NCBI GenBank assembly: GCA_016777845.1
Contig: JADHQS010000005.1
Coordinates: 1 to 36,754 of the forward strand
Source of the DNA: Candidatus Actinomarina sp.
GTDB taxonomy: Bacteria > Actinomycetota > Acidimicrobiia > Actinomarinales > Actinomarinaceae
Length of the DNA stretch: 36,754 bases
Direction: 5' to 3'
Positions 2,650-19,481 of the stretch are shown piece by piece; position 1 is the stretch's first letter, and each line of letters opens with the position of its first letter. The notes beneath the pieces were generated by a model, which was not told where the DNA came from, searched no databases, and was given only the letters and a program-made list of their open reading frames with translations. Both the position numbers and the translations under genes were made by a program.

Positions 2650-3006
2650 ATGGATGATTTAATTTTAAAACAGTTTGATAAACCTGACGAAGTAAGAAAT
2701 TTTGAAAAAGGTAAGTTTGAAATTGTTAAAATGCCTACTATGACAATTGGTCGTGCAACCTACAAACCTGGATGGAAATGGTCTGACGATGTATCACATT
2801 TATCAGGTACGAAATTTTGTGAAGTAGAACACCTAGGGATAGTTATTCAAGGAAAAGCAACAGCTCAATTTGAAGGTGAAGATCCTGTTGTAATGAATGA
2901 AGGAGATATATTTTATGTATCTAATAAGCCACACGATAGCTGGGTGGTTGGTGAAGAAGACTACATATCAATTCATTTTTTAGGTGCAGATAAATACGCA
3001 GACTGA
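2650..3006 (+). CDS. cupin-domain protein
   Basis: Cupin pattern: FCEVEHLGIVIQGKATAQFEGEDPVVMNEGDIFYVSNKPHDSWVVGEEDYISIHFLG. Ends in TGA followed directly by tRNA sequence. Confidence 0.7.
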   Translation: MDDLILKQFDKPDEVRNFEKGKFEIVKMPTMTIGRATYKPGWKWSDDVSHLSGTKFCEVEHLGIVIQGKATAQFEGEDPVVMNEGDIFYVSNKPHDSWVVGEEDYISIHFLGADKYAD

Positions 3007-3978: not shown

Positions 3979-4650
3979 TTATTGTAATAATGAAACGTCT
4001 ATTGTGTCACCATCAGAGAATGTACTATGGTCTTTCTTGTATATGATATGAACATTTTGTTTTCCGAGAACACTTATTTGATCACCATCTTTAAGAAAGT
4101 ATGTGTCTTTTTCTAAACAAAGTAATTTGTACTTCCCTCTGTTTAAAACCTTTACAGTATTTGAAATCCATGAATAAAAACTCTCACCATAATGTGGGAT
4201 GACAATTGTGTTTGGTAAATAATTTAAACCAACCCCTTTAATCATTTTCTCTCCCATAATCATTGCACCAGCACTACATCCAGCAATAATCCCTCTCTTT
4301 TCAACATCATGTAGCTCAGTAGAGAAGTTTGAATCATGTATAGAGTCATATAAGTGATTTGGTGAACCCCCAGAAAAAAATACAAAATTTGATTTTTTCA
4401 TTTCTTCAATTACGAAATCTTGATTTAAATCATCACTATTCCTTGCATCTATATGTTTATGATTAACATTTAAATTTTTGAAATGCTCTATTGCAAGATT
4501 TTCCCAGTAAGAAAGTCTTGCATTAGATTCTTTACCAGCAGCTGTAGAAAATGTAAGTACATATGGACTCTTATCTAAATAATTTAAAAGTTTCCTATCT
4601 ACTTCAAGAATAGACGGTAAAAACTCTCCTGAACCTGTAATAGCAATCAT
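3979..4650 (-). CDS. peptidase S51 / cyanophycinase-like protein
   Basis: GGSPNHLYDSI and GIIAGCSAGAMIMGE (nucleophile-Ser motif). Start reassigned to ATG at 4650 (MIAITGSGEF) because the ORF-track start lies in tRNA genes. Confidence 0.8.
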   Translation of the reverse strand: MIAITGSGEFLPSILEVDRKLLNYLDKSPYVLTFSTAAGKESNARLSYWENLAIEHFKNLNVNHKHIDARNSDDLNQDFVIEEMKKSNFVFFSGGSPNHLYDSIHDSNFSTELHDVEKRGIIAGCSAGAMIMGEKMIKGVGLNYLPNTIVIPHYGESFYSWISNTVKVLNRGKYKLLCLEKDTYFLKDGDQISVLGKQNVHIIYKKDHSTFSDGDTIDVSLLQ

Positions 4651-6848: not shown

Positions 6849-7121
6849 TCAAATATTTACTGGTAATATCAGTATTTGATCTTCCATAAGTAATGAACTG
6901 TCTAAATTATTCATCTTTTTAATTAAATAGATAAATTCCTGATGATTTTTATTTGTAAATTTATGCGAAATACCCCATAGTGTGTCTCCTTTTTGTATTT
7001 TATACTCAACAGTTGGTGTATTTTGATATTGATATTGATCGCTAATTGGTTTTTTTACAAAAAATATCATTAAGCTACTAAAAAAATACAGAGATATTAT
7101 TAATTTGATTTTTAACTTCAT
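6849..7121 (-). CDS. LysM-domain membrane/secreted protein
   Basis: TM segment MKLKIKLIISLYFFSSLMIFF then LysM-like YKIQKGDTLWGISHKF...NNLDSSLLMEDQILILP. Divergent from lexA. Confidence 0.75.
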   Translation of the reverse strand: MKLKIKLIISLYFFSSLMIFFVKKPISDQYQYQNTPTVEYKIQKGDTLWGISHKFTNKNHQEFIYLIKKMNNLDSSLLMEDQILILPVNI

Positions 7122-7159
7122 AAAAAAATTGTAGTAATTGTGTATGACAAAAAATTGTT

Positions 7160-7173
7160 CGAACATTTGTTCT
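7160..7173. promoter_or_regulatory. LexA/SOS box between the LysM gene and lexA
   Basis: CGAACATTTGTTCT, matching the Gram-positive/actinobacterial-type GAAC-N4-GTTC operator; 23 nt before the lexA ATG. Confidence 0.88.
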
Positions 7174-13116: not shown

Positions 13117-13599
13117 ATGAAACGTTACTTGCCAGTATTTATCATTTTATTAATTTCTTGCTCATTTAGTGCTAATGAAGAAATGGAAAGTGAACTATTA
13201 GAAGTGGTGGCAAAATCTACAAATGCTATCACAGAAACAACTTTTGATTATTTAGACACATCAGAATCTGTCGTTACTGAGAATTTTACAGATAAAAAAA
13301 CTATTATAATTTTTTGGGCTGATTACTGAGGAATTTGCAGACGGGAGTTGCCTGTCGTGGAAAAAAAATTAGCTGACTTAACTGATGAATACGATGTTAT
13401 TGCTTTAGCTCATAGCCAATACGAACCAACAATGGAATGGGTTAATGAAAATTTAAATGGTGAACTAACAATAGGTTTCTCTACACCTGAATTAAGAGAC
13501 TATTTTAAGATTGTTGGTCAACCAATATCTATAGTTCTTGACACAAATGGTGAAATAATTTCTCGAACTTATGGAGAAATTGATTTAACTAATTTTTAA
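13117..13599 (+). CDS. predicted selenocysteine-containing thioredoxin-like (TlpA/ResA-type) lipoprotein, read through in-frame TGA at 13327-13329
   Basis: The two track ORFs (13117-13329 and 13348-13599) share one frame: MKRYLPVFIILLISCSFSA...KKTIIIFWADY-[TGA]-GICRRELPVVEKKLADLTDEYDVIALAHSQ...IVGQPISIVLDTNGEIISRTYGEIDLTNF*. Lipobox LISC; the TGA occupies the first Cys of CxxC; cis-Pro-like GQP is conserved. Confidence 0.85.
13334..13363 (+). promoter_or_regulatory. candidate bacterial SECIS hairpin
   Basis: RNA UUU-G-CA-GACGGG-AGUUG-CCUGUC-(G)-UG-G-AAA: 6-bp stem GACGGG/CCUGUC with 5-nt apical loop AGUUG, extended by CA/UG across a bulged G, and UUU/AAA across a G-G mismatch. Loop starts 16 nt after the TGA. 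Confidence 0.65.
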
Positions 13600-13664: not shown

Positions 13665-14699
13665 GTGAAAAAAACATTTTTTATTCTTCTAACACTCTCA
13701 CTTGTGTTTGTAGCATGTAGTGGAGCTGAGGAAGAAGTCGAAAAAATTACTTTTGGATTCGTTCCAAGTGCCGAACAGACTGATCTTCAAGACAACATCC
13801 AGCCATTAATGGATGTTCTATCTGAAGGTTTAGGTATTGAAGTGGAAGGATTTGTTACAAGTGACTACTCAGGTTTAATTGTAGCAATGGGATCCGGTCA
13901 AGCTGATATTGGTGCATTTAACACATTAGGTTATGTTAATGCTATGAATGCATATCCAGATTCTTTAGAAGCTATTGCTAAAGTAGTGAGATACGGTTCT
14001 GGTTCATATCATGGAACATTCTTTACAAATGATGCAAGTATCTGTAATGAGCCACCTGTAATTGGTGCTTTAGAGAATATTGATGGAACTGCAACTTTAG
14101 TCAAAGGTTCTGCTGACACAGCTCCTGATGTTAAAGCTCTTCAAGTCGGATGGGTTTTTGGAGATAATGGTTTAGAGCCAGATCCTGATCATGATGCTGG
14201 ACTAGCTTGTGAAGCTGATCTATCAGTAATGCTAGGTAAAACAGTTGCATTTGTTGAAGAAGGCTCAACGTCTGGTTATTTATTTCCTGCTATTCAGCTA
14301 AAAAATGCAGGAATAGATTATCAATCTGATTTTGATGTCATATTTGCTGGGTCTCACGATGCATCAGTTTTAGCTGTTTATAATGGCGATGCTGACTTTG
14401 GTATAGCATTTGATGATGCAAGAAGAAGTATTAGAAAAGAGTATCCTGATGTTGGCTCTAAAGTAATTGCTTTTAGCATTACGGAAGAAATTCCTAATGA
14501 TGTTGTAGCAGTACGATCTAACCTTCCAGAAGATATGAAAGAACAAATTTATCAAATTCTTAGTGATTATCTTGCAACTGAAGAAGGATTAGCTGTTATG
14601 GATGAAATTTATGGTTGGACAGATATCGTTCCAGCTGAAAATTCGGAGTTTGACATAGTTAAACAAGCAGCTGAAGAATTCGGGCTTTACGACGAATAA
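13665..14699 (+). CDS. phnD: PhnD-like (phosphonate/phosphite-type) ABC transporter substrate-binding lipoprotein
   Basis: GTG start after GGAGG; lipobox FVAC; FGFVPSAEQTDLQDNIQPLMDVLSE, GQADIGAFNTLGYV, KTVAFVEEGSTSGYLFPAIQLKNAGI. Confidence 0.88.
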   Translation: MKKTFFILLTLSLVFVACSGAEEEVEKITFGFVPSAEQTDLQDNIQPLMDVLSEGLGIEVEGFVTSDYSGLIVAMGSGQADIGAFNTLGYVNAMNAYPDSLEAIAKVVRYGSGSYHGTFFTNDASICNEPPVIGALENIDGTATLVKGSADTAPDVKALQVGWVFGDNGLEPDPDHDAGLACEADLSVMLGKTVAFVEEGSTSGYLFPAIQLKNAGIDYQSDFDVIFAGSHDASVLAVYNGDADFGIAFDDARRSIRKEYPDVGSKVIAFSITEEIPNDVVAVRSNLPEDMKEQIYQILSDYLATEEGLAVMDEIYGWTDIVPAENSEFDIVKQAAEEFGLYDE

Positions 14700-14721
14700 C
14701 ATAAGAAAATAGTTATTATTA

Positions 14722-14755
14722 TCAAGGGGTAGGAATCTACCCCTTGATTTTTTAT
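14722..14755 (+). terminator. intrinsic terminator between phnD and phnC
   Basis: 11-bp perfect stem TCAAGGGGTAG-GAAT-CTACCCCTTGA followed by TTTTTT. Confidence 0.85.
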
Positions 14756-14756
14756 T

Positions 14757-15524
14757 ATGATTAAATTTGAAAATGTAAATGTAACATATCCAGGTGGTGT
14801 TGTAGCTTTAAAAGATATCAATCTTGAAATTAAAGAGGGCGATTTCATAATTATTGTTGGTTTATCTGGTGCAGGAAAATCTACTCTACTTAGAACAATC
14901 AATAATTTGGTTAAACCATCAAGTGGAACTGTTTACCTTGAAGGTGCAGACGTTACGAATGCAAAGAAAAAAGAACTAAAACTAATCAGATCAAAAATAG
15001 GTATGATTTTTCAAACATTCAATTTGGTAAATAGATCAACCGTATTAAAAAATGTTTTAACTGGAAGATTAAGCAACGTATCAACTATTAAATCAATATT
15101 AGGACTTTGGCCTAAGGATGAAAAAAAATTAGCTTTTGAAGCATTAAATCAAGTTGAAATACTTGAAAAAGCATATGTAAGAGCTTCAAATTTATCTGGT
15201 GGTCAACAACAAAGAGTTGGAATTGCTAGAGCGCTTTCACAAAAGCCAAAAGTTATGCTTGCTGATGAACCAGTCGCTTCCTTAGATCCAATTACATCAA
15301 GAGTTGTTATGAGTTATCTTAAAAAAATTAATACAGAATTAGGTATTACAACTATTGTGAATTTACACTTTTTAGATTTAGCTAAAGAATTTGGTGATAG
15401 GTTAATTGGCCTAAGAGATGGCAAGCTTGTGTTTGATGGCAATGTTAACGAAGTTTCAGACGATGATTTTGAAAATATTTATGGTAGATCTATCAAATCT
15501 TCAGACCTAATCGGTGATGATTAA
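14757..15524 (+). CDS. phnC: PhnC-like ABC transporter ATP-binding protein
   Basis: Walker A GLSGAGKS, signature LSGGQQQR, Walker B KVMLADEPVASLDP. Confidence 0.92.
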   Translation: MIKFENVNVTYPGGVVALKDINLEIKEGDFIIIVGLSGAGKSTLLRTINNLVKPSSGTVYLEGADVTNAKKKELKLIRSKIGMIFQTFNLVNRSTVLKNVLTGRLSNVSTIKSILGLWPKDEKKLAFEALNQVEILEKAYVRASNLSGGQQQRVGIARALSQKPKVMLADEPVASLDPITSRVVMSYLKKINTELGITTIVNLHFLDLAKEFGDRLIGLRDGKLVFDGNVNEVSDDDFENIYGRSIKSSDLIGDD

Positions 15525-16299
15525 TATACCTCCTAAACCAAAAGCTTCTTACTTAGCAAAAATTGGTCTTCCATTTGCGTTTATGTTTTCTATTTTTTCT
15601 TTTAATATGATAGATTTTAACTTTTCAGATTTTCAAAACAATTTACAAAATCGTAAAATTGTAACTGAACCGTTATTTAATCCAAAATGGCAATGGGCAT
15701 GGGATAATACTTCTTCAGCACTGTTAGAGACAATCCAGATAGCAATACTAGCTAGTATTATAGGTTGTGCTATTGCACTCCCGTTATCCTTTTATGCTTC
15801 AAGAGCCACCAATTTAAATAAATTTTCATACTTTCTTTATAAATCGTTTTTAAATCTTGTTAGAACTATTCCTGATTTATTTTGGGCAATGATGTTTACT
15901 GTAGCTGTTGGAATTGGACCATTCGCTGGTGTGCTTGCTTTAGTAATGTTTTCATTAGCTATTATGGGTAAATTGTTGTCAGAAACTATAGACAGTATAG
16001 ATCCTGGTCCAATGGAGGCTGCAAAAGCAACTGGAGCTTCACACAACCAAACTGTATTTACATCTGCACTGCCACAAGTCTTACCAAATTTTACTGCCTA
16101 TTTTCTATATATATTTGAACTTTGTATTAGAGCGAGTGTAATCTTGGGGCTTGTTGGCGCAGGGGGTGTTGGAAGAATAATTGAGACTCAAAGAATTTTC
16201 TTAAGGTTTGATAGAATTTCTCCAATAATAGTAATAATCCTTGCTGTTGTAATTTTAATAGAACAATTTAGTGTTTGGATCCGAAAAAGAATATTATGA
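15514..16299 (+). CDS. phnE: PhnE-like ABC transporter permease 1
   Basis: EAAKATGASHNQ EAA-loop; GAGGVGRIIETQ; multi-TM. TGA stop overlaps the next ATG (ATGA). Confidence 0.88.
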   Translation: MMINIPPKPKASYLAKIGLPFAFMFSIFSFNMIDFNFSDFQNNLQNRKIVTEPLFNPKWQWAWDNTSSALLETIQIAILASIIGCAIALPLSFYASRATNLNKFSYFLYKSFLNLVRTIPDLFWAMMFTVAVGIGPFAGVLALVMFSLAIMGKLLSETIDSIDPGPMEAAKATGASHNQTVFTSALPQVLPNFTAYFLYIFELCIRASVILGLVGAGGVGRIIETQRIFLRFDRISPIIVIILAVVILIEQFSVWIRKRIL

Positions 16300-17099
16300 A
16301 TTTACCTAAACAACCTTTAAATCAAAAAATATTTAAATATTCAATAACATCATTAATTATTCTTGCTTCTTTATGGTCAGCTGCTGGATTAGAAATCACA
16401 TTAGATAGGATAATTGATGCGCCAAAACAAATTGGAATATTGGTAGGTGCAATGTTTCCTTTAGATCTTAGCCAAGAGGCTTTTAGTAGAATAATCCCTA
16501 AGGTTTTTGAATCTTTATTTATCGCTTGGGCTGGAACGGTTATTGGGTCATTTTTTAGTTTTCCTATATCGTTCCTTGCTGCGAATAACTTTACTAAAGG
16601 AATTGTGAGTAAAGCAACTAAACAAATCCTAAATATTATTCGTGCATTTCCTGAATTAATATTAGCCTTTATTTTCCTACCTATTACGGGATTGGGTCCC
16701 TTAACAGGAACACTTGCTATAGGAATTCACTCAATAGGAACTCTAGGAAAACTATCATCCGAAGTTATTGAAGGTATAGATGAAGGACCATTAGAAGCAA
16801 TAAAATCTTCCGGAGGATCTAAAATAAATGAGCTAACTTTTGGGATTATTCCTCAAGTAATGCCAACTATTACTTCTTATTGGCTGTATCGATTTGAAAT
16901 AAATTTAAGAGCATCTGCAGTTTTAGGTGTAGTTGGTGCTGGTGGCGTAGGTCAAGAATTAATTAACCAACTAAGATTTAGAGACTTCCCAAGAGCAGGT
17001 ACTGTACTTGTTTGCACAATAGTGTTAGTCCTTACAGCTGATGCTGTATCAGCAGCAATAAGAAACAGGATAATTAAAGGAAAATTAGTAAAAAGCTAG
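16296..17099 (+). CDS. phnE: PhnE-like ABC transporter permease 2
   Basis: EAIKSSGGSKINE EAA-loop, GAGGVGQELINQLRFRDF; start set at ATG 16296. Confidence 0.88.
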   Translation: MNLPKQPLNQKIFKYSITSLIILASLWSAAGLEITLDRIIDAPKQIGILVGAMFPLDLSQEAFSRIIPKVFESLFIAWAGTVIGSFFSFPISFLAANNFTKGIVSKATKQILNIIRAFPELILAFIFLPITGLGPLTGTLAIGIHSIGTLGKLSSEVIEGIDEGPLEAIKSSGGSKINELTFGIIPQVMPTITSYWLYRFEINLRASAVLGVVGAGGVGQELINQLRFRDFPRAGTVLVCTIVLVLTADAVSAAIRNRIIKGKLVKS

Positions 17100-19481
17100 T
17101 TATTCTTCGTACCAGTTATCTTCTGACTCTTCATCATTTTTAACAATATCCAAATTATCTGATTCATTCTCCACAGTAACTTCATTATTTGAGTCATTTA
17201 TAGAAGTTAAAGATGCTGATTCATATTCTTCAACAGTAATCAAGACTTCTCTGGCTTTTGATCCTTCCGATGGACCTACTATGCCTTGAGCTTCTAATAT
17301 ATCCATTAATCTTCCAGCTCTTGCAAATCCCACTCTAAGTTTTCTCTGGAGCATAGAAGTAGAACCTAATTGAGAACGTATTACTAATTCTTTTGCTGTA
17401 GATAATAACTTTTCATCTTCACCAAAGTCTTCAGAAGAAGAAACAGATGATGTTTTTTGTACTTCTATGACTGCTGGATTATAAACAGCTTCCTTTTGAT
17501 TTTTAACCCATGAAACAACATCTTTAATTTCATCTTCAGTTACCCATGCACCTTGAATTCTTTCTAAACGCGGGTTTGAAGCTGTTACAACTAACATGTC
17601 ACCTAAACCAATTAATTTTTCTGCACCAGATTGATCAAGAATAACTCTAGAGTCGGTTGTTGACGCTACTGAGAATGCGAGTCTTGAAGGTATGTTTGCC
17701 TTCATGACACCAGTGATAACGTCAACTGATGGTCTCTGTGTAGCAACTACTAAGTGTATACCAATTGCTCTTGCCATTTGAGCAAGTCTTACAATTGCAG
17801 ACTCAACTTCCCTACCAGCAACCATCATTAAGTCATTTAACTCGTCTATAAATACAACTATGTAGGGGAATCTATCGAACTTGTCTTCATCAAGAAGACC
17901 AGCGTCATATTTTTCGTGATAACCATTAATATCTCTAACCTGACCATCAGCTAGTAAGTCATATCTTCTGTCCATCTCTGAAACTGCCCAACCAAGTGCA
18001 TCTACAGCTTTTTTAGGATTTGTAATAACTTTTGTTAGCAAGTGAGGAACATTATTGTACTGACCTAATTCAACTCTTTTTGGATCAACCATAACCATCT
18101 TTACATCATTTGGATTAGTTCTTACAAGAAGGGATGTTACGATTGAGTTAATACATGAAGATTTACCAGCTCCAGTTTGTCCAGCAATTAGTACGTGTGG
18201 AAGTTCAGATAAATTTAATAATCTTGGTTTTCCTGATATGTCTAAGCCAAGACCGACATTCAATGGATGTTCAGCATTAGCTGCTTCCTTAGAAGAAAGA
18301 ACATCCCCCAGTGAAACAAGCTTTCGTTGCCTATTTGGTATCTCTATACCTATAGCGCTTCTTCCGGGAATTGGAGCAAGTAATCGCACATCTGGAGTAG
18401 CCAATGCATAAGCAATATCGTGAGAAAGAGAAGTAACTTTTGAAACTTTGACACCAGGTGCAAGTTCAATTTCATAACGAGTAACAGTTGGGCCTGGAAC
18501 AACATTTGTGAGCTCTGCTTCTACACCATGCTCTTTTAATAATTTTGTTAGATCACTCGCAGTTTCTTGTAATAACTTTTTGGAAGTAGACACAGAAGAT
18601 CCTTTTTTTAGCAATTTAACTGGAGGTAATGTATAAGTAGTAGATTTACTTTGCTTCCTAGCTTTTGGTTTAGCGGTTGGAAATTTCTTTTCTTTGAAAT
18701 CTTTTATATCTGATACATTTGTAGCTTTTTCTTTGATTTTTAATGCTGATTTTGAGACAGTATCAGGTTCTATCTCACTATTAATTGGATCCTTGTAAAT
18801 ATCATCAAGATATATATTTCTTGCTTCTTTTCTTGCTAATACAAATGCATAAATGAATTTATAAATGTACTTTATAATTGCTTGTATTCCTCCAATTAAA
18901 TCCTTTAGTTCTATATCAGTCATATACAAAACTGACATGATTAAGCCTAATAAAAGAATCGTATGTGTCATTTGTAGGCCAACGCTGTTAGTTAGTGGAT
19001 AAACTAAAAAAGCTGAAATATGACCACCTGACTTTAGTAAGGGTTCTGAACCAGCGCTCAAAGATAAAGGTTGTGCATGAATTAAAGAATGAAAAATAGA
19101 TGCTGAAAATATTTGTACCCAAAATGTTCCAACTAGAACTCTTTGTGCTTTTACTGATTCACGATCTCTTACAAGGATTCCGGCTCCATAGAAAAAGAAT
19201 ACAGGTAAAGCAAACACACCATAACCAAATGCCCACTGAAGTACGTTAAAAATAACTTCTCCAACAGGTCCTCCTTTAGAGAATATTGACAATACGGTAA
19301 GCATTCCAAAAGAAAACATAAAGACCGCTACAGCTTGATAAGATTGGACGAACTTAGTTAAAGTAATAGAAGTTGTAGATTTAAGTGTAGTTACTGCCCT
19401 GTCTACATTTATTAACTTGTTTTGTTTAGACACCCGCTTACGCCCATTCACCCTTTTGCGAGTGGATGTCTTTACAGCCAC
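17100..19481 (-). CDS. ftsK: DNA translocase FtsK/SpoIIIE
   Basis: N-terminal TM bundle, GQTGAGKSSCINSI Walker A, PYIVVFIDELNDLMM Walker B, C-terminal winged-helix (gamma) domain. Confidence 0.96.
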   Translation of the reverse strand: MAVKTSTRKRVNGRKRVSKQNKLINVDRAVTTLKSTTSITLTKFVQSYQAVAVFMFSFGMLTVLSIFSKGGPVGEVIFNVLQWAFGYGVFALPVFFFYGAGILVRDRESVKAQRVLVGTFWVQIFSASIFHSLIHAQPLSLSAGSEPLLKSGGHISAFLVYPLTNSVGLQMTHTILLLGLIMSVLYMTDIELKDLIGGIQAIIKYIYKFIYAFVLARKEARNIYLDDIYKDPINSEIEPDTVSKSALKIKEKATNVSDIKDFKEKKFPTAKPKARKQSKSTTYTLPPVKLLKKGSSVSTSKKLLQETASDLTKLLKEHGVEAELTNVVPGPTVTRYEIELAPGVKVSKVTSLSHDIAYALATPDVRLLAPIPGRSAIGIEIPNRQRKLVSLGDVLSSKEAANAEHPLNVGLGLDISGKPRLLNLSELPHVLIAGQTGAGKSSCINSIVTSLLVRTNPNDVKMVMVDPKRVELGQYNNVPHLLTKVITNPKKAVDALGWAVSEMDRRYDLLADGQVRDINGYHEKYDAGLLDEDKFDRFPYIVVFIDELNDLMMVAGREVESAIVRLAQMARAIGIHLVVATQRPSVDVITGVMKANIPSRLAFSVASTTDSRVILDQSGAEKLIGLGDMLVVTASNPRLERIQGAWVTEDEIKDVVSWVKNQKEAVYNPAVIEVQKTSSVSSSEDFGEDEKLLSTAKELVIRSQLGSTSMLQRKLRVGFARAGRLMDILEAQGIVGPSEGSKAREVLITVEEYESASLTSINDSNNEVTVENESDNLDIVKNDEESEDNWYEE

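Follow-up and report, generated by a model that had tools for sequence, protein, structure and literature searches.

Few free-living marine bacteria are as streamlined as Candidatus Actinomarina. The stretch of Actinomarina DNA analysed here (36,754 nt, called the window throughout) has a TGA codon where a thioredoxin-like protein would have its first catalytic cysteine. The question raised by this locus is whether the TGA ends a short gene or is decoded as selenocysteine (Sec), as claimed in an earlier note that read it as a hidden selenoprotein with a UxxC active site. We concluded that the claim holds: the gene very probably encodes a ResA/TlpA-type thiol-disulfide oxidoreductase that contains Sec and is lipid-anchored outside the cytoplasm. 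Sec coding, a SECIS-like hairpin, the fold and the lipobox are each well supported by sequence comparison.

A single reading frame with one internal TGA

Positions 13117-13599 of the forward strand form a single frame from the ATG at 13117 to the TAA at 13597-13599, in which the only internal stop is the TGA at 13327-13329 (codon 71). Reading through this codon gives a protein of 160 aa with the segment IIIFWADYUGICRRELPVVEKK. Its layout is a short hydrophobic signal, a lipobox LISC and a thioredoxin-type domain with FWADY-U-GIC-RRELP and a GQP loop. Residue 71 stands in place of the nucleophilic Cys, and Cys74 (13336-13338), invariant in the genus alignment, would be the resolving cysteine of the UxxC motif. 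Pro136 of the GQP motif (13522-13524) is likewise invariant and, judged from the fold, probably occupies the thioredoxin cis-proline position. The lipobox anchoring proposed earlier is supported by an invariant Cys15 (13159-13161), the residue predicted to be lipidated.

Automatic ORF calling splits the gene into 13117-13329 and 13348-13599. It had been noted that these two ORFs share one frame around the TGA, which is correct; the implied gene start at 13348 does not stand. This TTG is no gene start: it lies inside the hairpin described below, 3' of the active site, and an ORF beginning there is without the first half of the fold. The Pfam Redoxin domain spans the TGA (residues 39-152, E 6.6e-07). 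Global reassignment of TGA can be ruled out, as the earlier note had expected, because TGA terminates three other genes in the window (2650-3006; 6849-7166 on the minus strand; 15514-16299) and the frame shuts within 3-16 codons beyond the TGA in all three. In the window, whose GC content is 32.6%, a TGA bridges three other open stretches of comparable length, and these have no redox motif. The length of the TGA bridge alone is unremarkable; it is conservation that sets 13117-13599 above chance.

Fold and likely function

The AlphaFold model of the read-through protein has a mean pLDDT of 79.8, with block means of 86-96 across residues 41-150. A Foldseek search places it in the ResA/TlpA-like fold: the top match is ResA (E 2.5e-09), followed by Etrx lipoproteins, DsbF, TlpA, StoA and CcmG, and the fold matches include the E80Q and Cys variants of ResA. 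The spacing U71-C74-E77-P79 is the same as in the CxxCxxExP motif of ResA. ResA and StoA also rank first among the NCBIfam models; the ResA model NF002854 is not reached (35 bits vs. a cut-off of 170), and the protein is ResA-like in fold and not to be filed as ResA itself. The suggestion that the gene is hidden from annotation is plausible, because no NCBIfam model reaches its own cut-off for this protein.

The sequence-level matches to Pfam Redoxin and AhpC-TSA, together with the occurrence of Prx-like UxxC selenoproteins in the ocean (PMC2398784), would also suit a Sec-containing peroxide reductase (a peroxiredoxin or Prx-like enzyme), which we regard as improbable since both the structure search (ResA, Etrx, TlpA, StoA and CcmG first) and the NCBIfam ranking point elsewhere, and the UxxC dyad is the layout of a disulfide reductase, not the TxxC/TxxU of Prx. 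From the sequence and the model we infer an exported, lipid-anchored disulfide reductase with a selenolate nucleophile, which would act in the direction of disulfide reduction. A ResA-like role in cytochrome or oxidase maturation is one possibility. The genome that holds the window also has a related protein without a TGA (L191, contig 19, positions 4012-4443; about 27% identity).

Conservation and selection on both sides of the TGA

A search of 59 genomes with the protein as query recovered orthologues in the window's genome and in 28 other genomes of the genus, the latter at 49-86% identity to the window protein; no such orthologue was found in six genus genomes, all of them incomplete. Each of the 29 orthologues has exactly one TGA, and in 29/29 it falls in one shared alignment column. 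Four additional genus genomes, found later, also have one TGA each. Compared with nine near relatives, the window gene has a dN/dS of 0.12-0.29 upstream of the TGA and of 0.04-0.15 downstream. The stretch behind the "stop" is therefore the more constrained part of the gene, which bears out the claim of an intact downstream frame running to the TAA. The frame is certainly translated past the UGA. An in-frame UGA that is kept in all 29 orthologues and flanked on either side by constrained coding sequence is the pattern of a bacterial selenoprotein.

A SECIS-like hairpin behind the UGA

A 6-bp stem (13340-13345 paired with 13351-13356, forward strand) with the loop AGUUG (13346-13350) begins 10 bases past the UGA. 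In the published model of bacterial SECIS elements the loop has 3-9 nt and the stem 4-16 bp, one of the first two loop positions is a G, and the UGA is 16-37 nt away (PMC13188914). The hairpin at 13340-13356 agrees with this model on every count: the loop is 5 nt, the stem 6 bp, the G is at loop position 2 and the UGA-to-loop distance is 16 nt. The stem pairs 6/6 in all 29 genus sequences. Among 14 distinct rows of the alignment, 100% of the cells are paired and the covariation score lies above those of all 500 shuffles; when the partner is shifted by 1-3 columns, only 49-70% are paired. In five rows, one C-G pair of the stem is replaced by G-C. Synonymous resampling of the window codons retained all six pairs in just 527 of 20,000 cases. 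The fold of the window sequence taken alone is modestly better than that of shuffles (z -2.4). These results support well the assignment of the hairpin as a putative SECIS-like element. The earlier note had asked for conservation of the TGA and the hairpin in relatives; it is found across the genus and, as described below, largely across the class.

Sec-decoding machinery in the genus

The window's genome encodes a tRNA-Sec with a UCA anticodon on contig 30 (75.4 bits, above the Rfam cut-off), and selD lies about 26 kb from it (contig 30, 37355-38272; TGA at 18242 on the minus strand of locus L190). This SelD is itself Sec-coding: a single TGA lies in its catalytic motif, HGSGUACK. Throughout the genus, tRNA-Sec is present in 40/42 genomes (the window's and 39 others over the Rfam cut-off), selD in 40/42, each with the catalytic-site TGA, and selA in 34/42; all three are present in every one of the eight genus genomes that are at least 90% complete. 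The matches to selA in G028, G006, G063, G016, G017 and G005 include one TAA or TAG within the stretch that matched, a stop that may just precede the actual start of the gene. Where selA and selB were found in relatives they adjoin, and SelB is full-length with GTPase and SelB winged-helix domains; its best score in the genus is below the curated cut-off of TIGR00475 (223 vs. 242 bits).

The expectation that the whole set would be present in the same genome held for tRNA-Sec and selD; selA and selB were not found in the window's own assembly (751 kb in 40 contigs, 77% complete) and were found in relatives. The 18 kb surrounding selA-selB in G034 have no match in the window's genome, and a 10-kb part of this region matches G003, G008 and G009. 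Because the flanking DNA is also absent from the window's assembly yet partly present in relatives, an assembly gap is most likely the reason for the missing selA-selB, as judged from these relatives; it is better supported than a loss of selAB in this species, which we rejected.

Sec and Cys homologues in the class

The genus belongs to the class Acidimicrobiia in GTDB (PMC7771536). Homologues outside the genus have a Cys aligned at residue 71, as the earlier note had anticipated for a Sec protein. Sec homologues in other families of the class read FWAEW-U-xxC, FWAPY-U-xxC or xWAPH-U-xxC. Thirteen of the 16 class Sec loci pair 6/6 in the same hairpin register with differing base composition, and the other three (G041, G036 and G138) pair just 3-4 in that register; a strong stem folds in a slightly shifted register in G036. 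At the hairpin position, by comparison, 1-4 of the 6 pairs form in eight Cys genes from the broad family. The proteins with xWAPHU or FWAPYU form a second, divergent class Sec group (L185-L188 in G041, G057 and G036, with two copies in G057); in G036 and G041 the hairpin of this group is weak or out of register. A DNA pattern search of named genomes gave many chance matches, and matches were retained only if they lay on Actinomarina-type contigs. Near the Sec gene in two class genomes (L180 and L182) there is a CxxC thioredoxin-like gene of the same broad type on the opposite (minus) strand; it was caught by the motif scan and separated before counting.

In the tree, the Cys protein of G155 falls within the Sec clade beside that of G045 (support 99/84). 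The G155 gene pairs 2/6 at the hairpin position and its genome is without selA. Compared with G045 (L181), the G155 gene (L212) likely represents a reversal from Sec to Cys in which the hairpin was lost and selA is absent. The deeper tree is unsure through long branches, notably as to strict orthology between the Actinomarina and FWAEWU proteins. selA is present in 15/15 Sec-type class genomes vs. 4/13 others, a descriptive comparison of genomes that we chose.

Translation beyond the UGA is certain, yet dN/dS alone names no residue, and a near-cognate ordinary tRNA that reads the UGA (inserting Trp or Cys, for example) would leave the same signature with no selenocysteine involved. We consider this very unlikely given that the genus retains tRNA-Sec, SelA, SelB and SelD, that a covarying hairpin sits at the right place, and that homologues carry Cys, with the G155 reversal to Cys having neither hairpin nor selA. 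The two automatically called ORFs might suggest a pseudogene, a sequencing error or a pair of distinct short genes; these readings can be dismissed in view of the identical TGA in 29 separate assemblies, the purifying selection downstream of it, the TTG "start" placed within the hairpin past the active site, and the one thioredoxin domain that runs across the TGA.

Proposed decoding and catalysis

If the UGA is decoded as Sec, SelB with Sec-tRNA-Sec would bind the hairpin just 3' of the UGA, and translation, rather than terminating, would continue with Sec at position 71; if Sec were lacking, the ribosome would halt at residue 70, ahead of the active site. The full-length protein would be exported and lipidated at Cys15, and its thioredoxin domain would fold outside the membrane. 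The Sec71 selenolate is predicted to attack substrate disulfides and Cys74 to resolve the intermediate, after which the oxidised Sec71-Cys74 pair may be re-reduced by a membrane thiol donor.

Relation to known selenoproteins

The UxxC thioredoxin-like selenoproteins of ocean metagenomes are already known as an established and abundant marine group. Trx-like 1 (COG0526) accounts for 321 sequences in the Global Ocean Sampling (GOS) data (PMC2398784), and a review from 2026 includes, from marine metagenome work, a UxxC family of cd02966 named "thiol-disulfide isomerase-like" (PMC13188914). Both resemble the Actinomarina protein in being thioredoxin-fold, UxxC and marine bacterial (PMC2398784, PMC1088965, PMC13188914). 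cd02966 is the TlpA-like family, and the Actinomarina protein likewise has UxxC in a TlpA-like thioredoxin fold. The families were published as metagenome reads or family entries, the papers found do not give Actinomarina as a host, and the comparison with them covers motif and fold.

ResA, TlpA, CcmG, StoA and Etrx share with the protein the fold, a motif at the CxxC position with the ResA spacing to Glu and Pro, and an export signal. It differs from them in having Sec for the first Cys, and its identity to the solved structures is 12-23%. NCBIfam NF041054, a ResA-like WAxxUGC selenoprotein, is likewise ResA-like with Sec after WAxx, but is a longer protein whose motif is UGC, not UxxC; the Actinomarina protein scores 23 bits against its cut-off of 300. 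The selenoprotein form of SelD (SGUACK) is the other Sec-coding gene of the genome and depends on the same machinery, although it is a cytosolic Sec-pathway enzyme of unrelated fold.

A genome study of the order of Actinomarina does not mention selenium (PMC7771536), and our literature search found no publication joining selenoproteins to Actinomarina. The host, the gene context and the retention of Sec decoding in a genome of about 1 Mb look new. Our search for further selenoproteins covered about 66 kb of scanned sequence and the AhpC/TSA family in eight genus genomes, where no TGA-containing member was found. It is possible rather than probable that this streamlined, free-living genome of about 1 Mb keeps the whole Sec apparatus essentially for two proteins, SelD and the exported ResA/TlpA-like lipoprotein, and that the exported selenoenzyme is what holds Sec there. 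If true, this one enzyme would maintain selenocysteine in a genome that is among the smallest of free-living ocean bacteria. An exported selenoenzyme that is conserved together with its SECIS and machinery would link a surface-ocean lineage to selenium. It would also account for a gene that automated pipelines would divide or label a pseudogene, and the lineage would be a host for some of the orphan thioredoxin-like UxxC selenoproteins in ocean metagenomes. The Sec and Cys versions in the class would offer a natural experiment on what holds the SECIS in place.

Gene neighbourhood

Downstream of the selenogene, the window contains a phosphonate-type ABC transporter, phnD-phnC-phnE-phnE (13665-17099). 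The published study of the order placed a phosphonate transporter in a flexible genomic island (PMC7771536). The cassette does not adjoin the selenogene in G029, G011 and G017, where the selenogene is kept, and is reduced in G032; the transporter therefore looks like a variable neighbour and not a partner, and functional coupling between the two is unsupported. Selenate import by this transporter was rejected as well: its binding protein matches the putative selenate family weakly (78.5 bits, cut-off 250) and scores 191 bits on the general phosphate/phosphite/phosphonate family. On the other side, divergent cinA lies upstream of the selenogene in 29/29 loci, with recA further out where the locus extends far enough.
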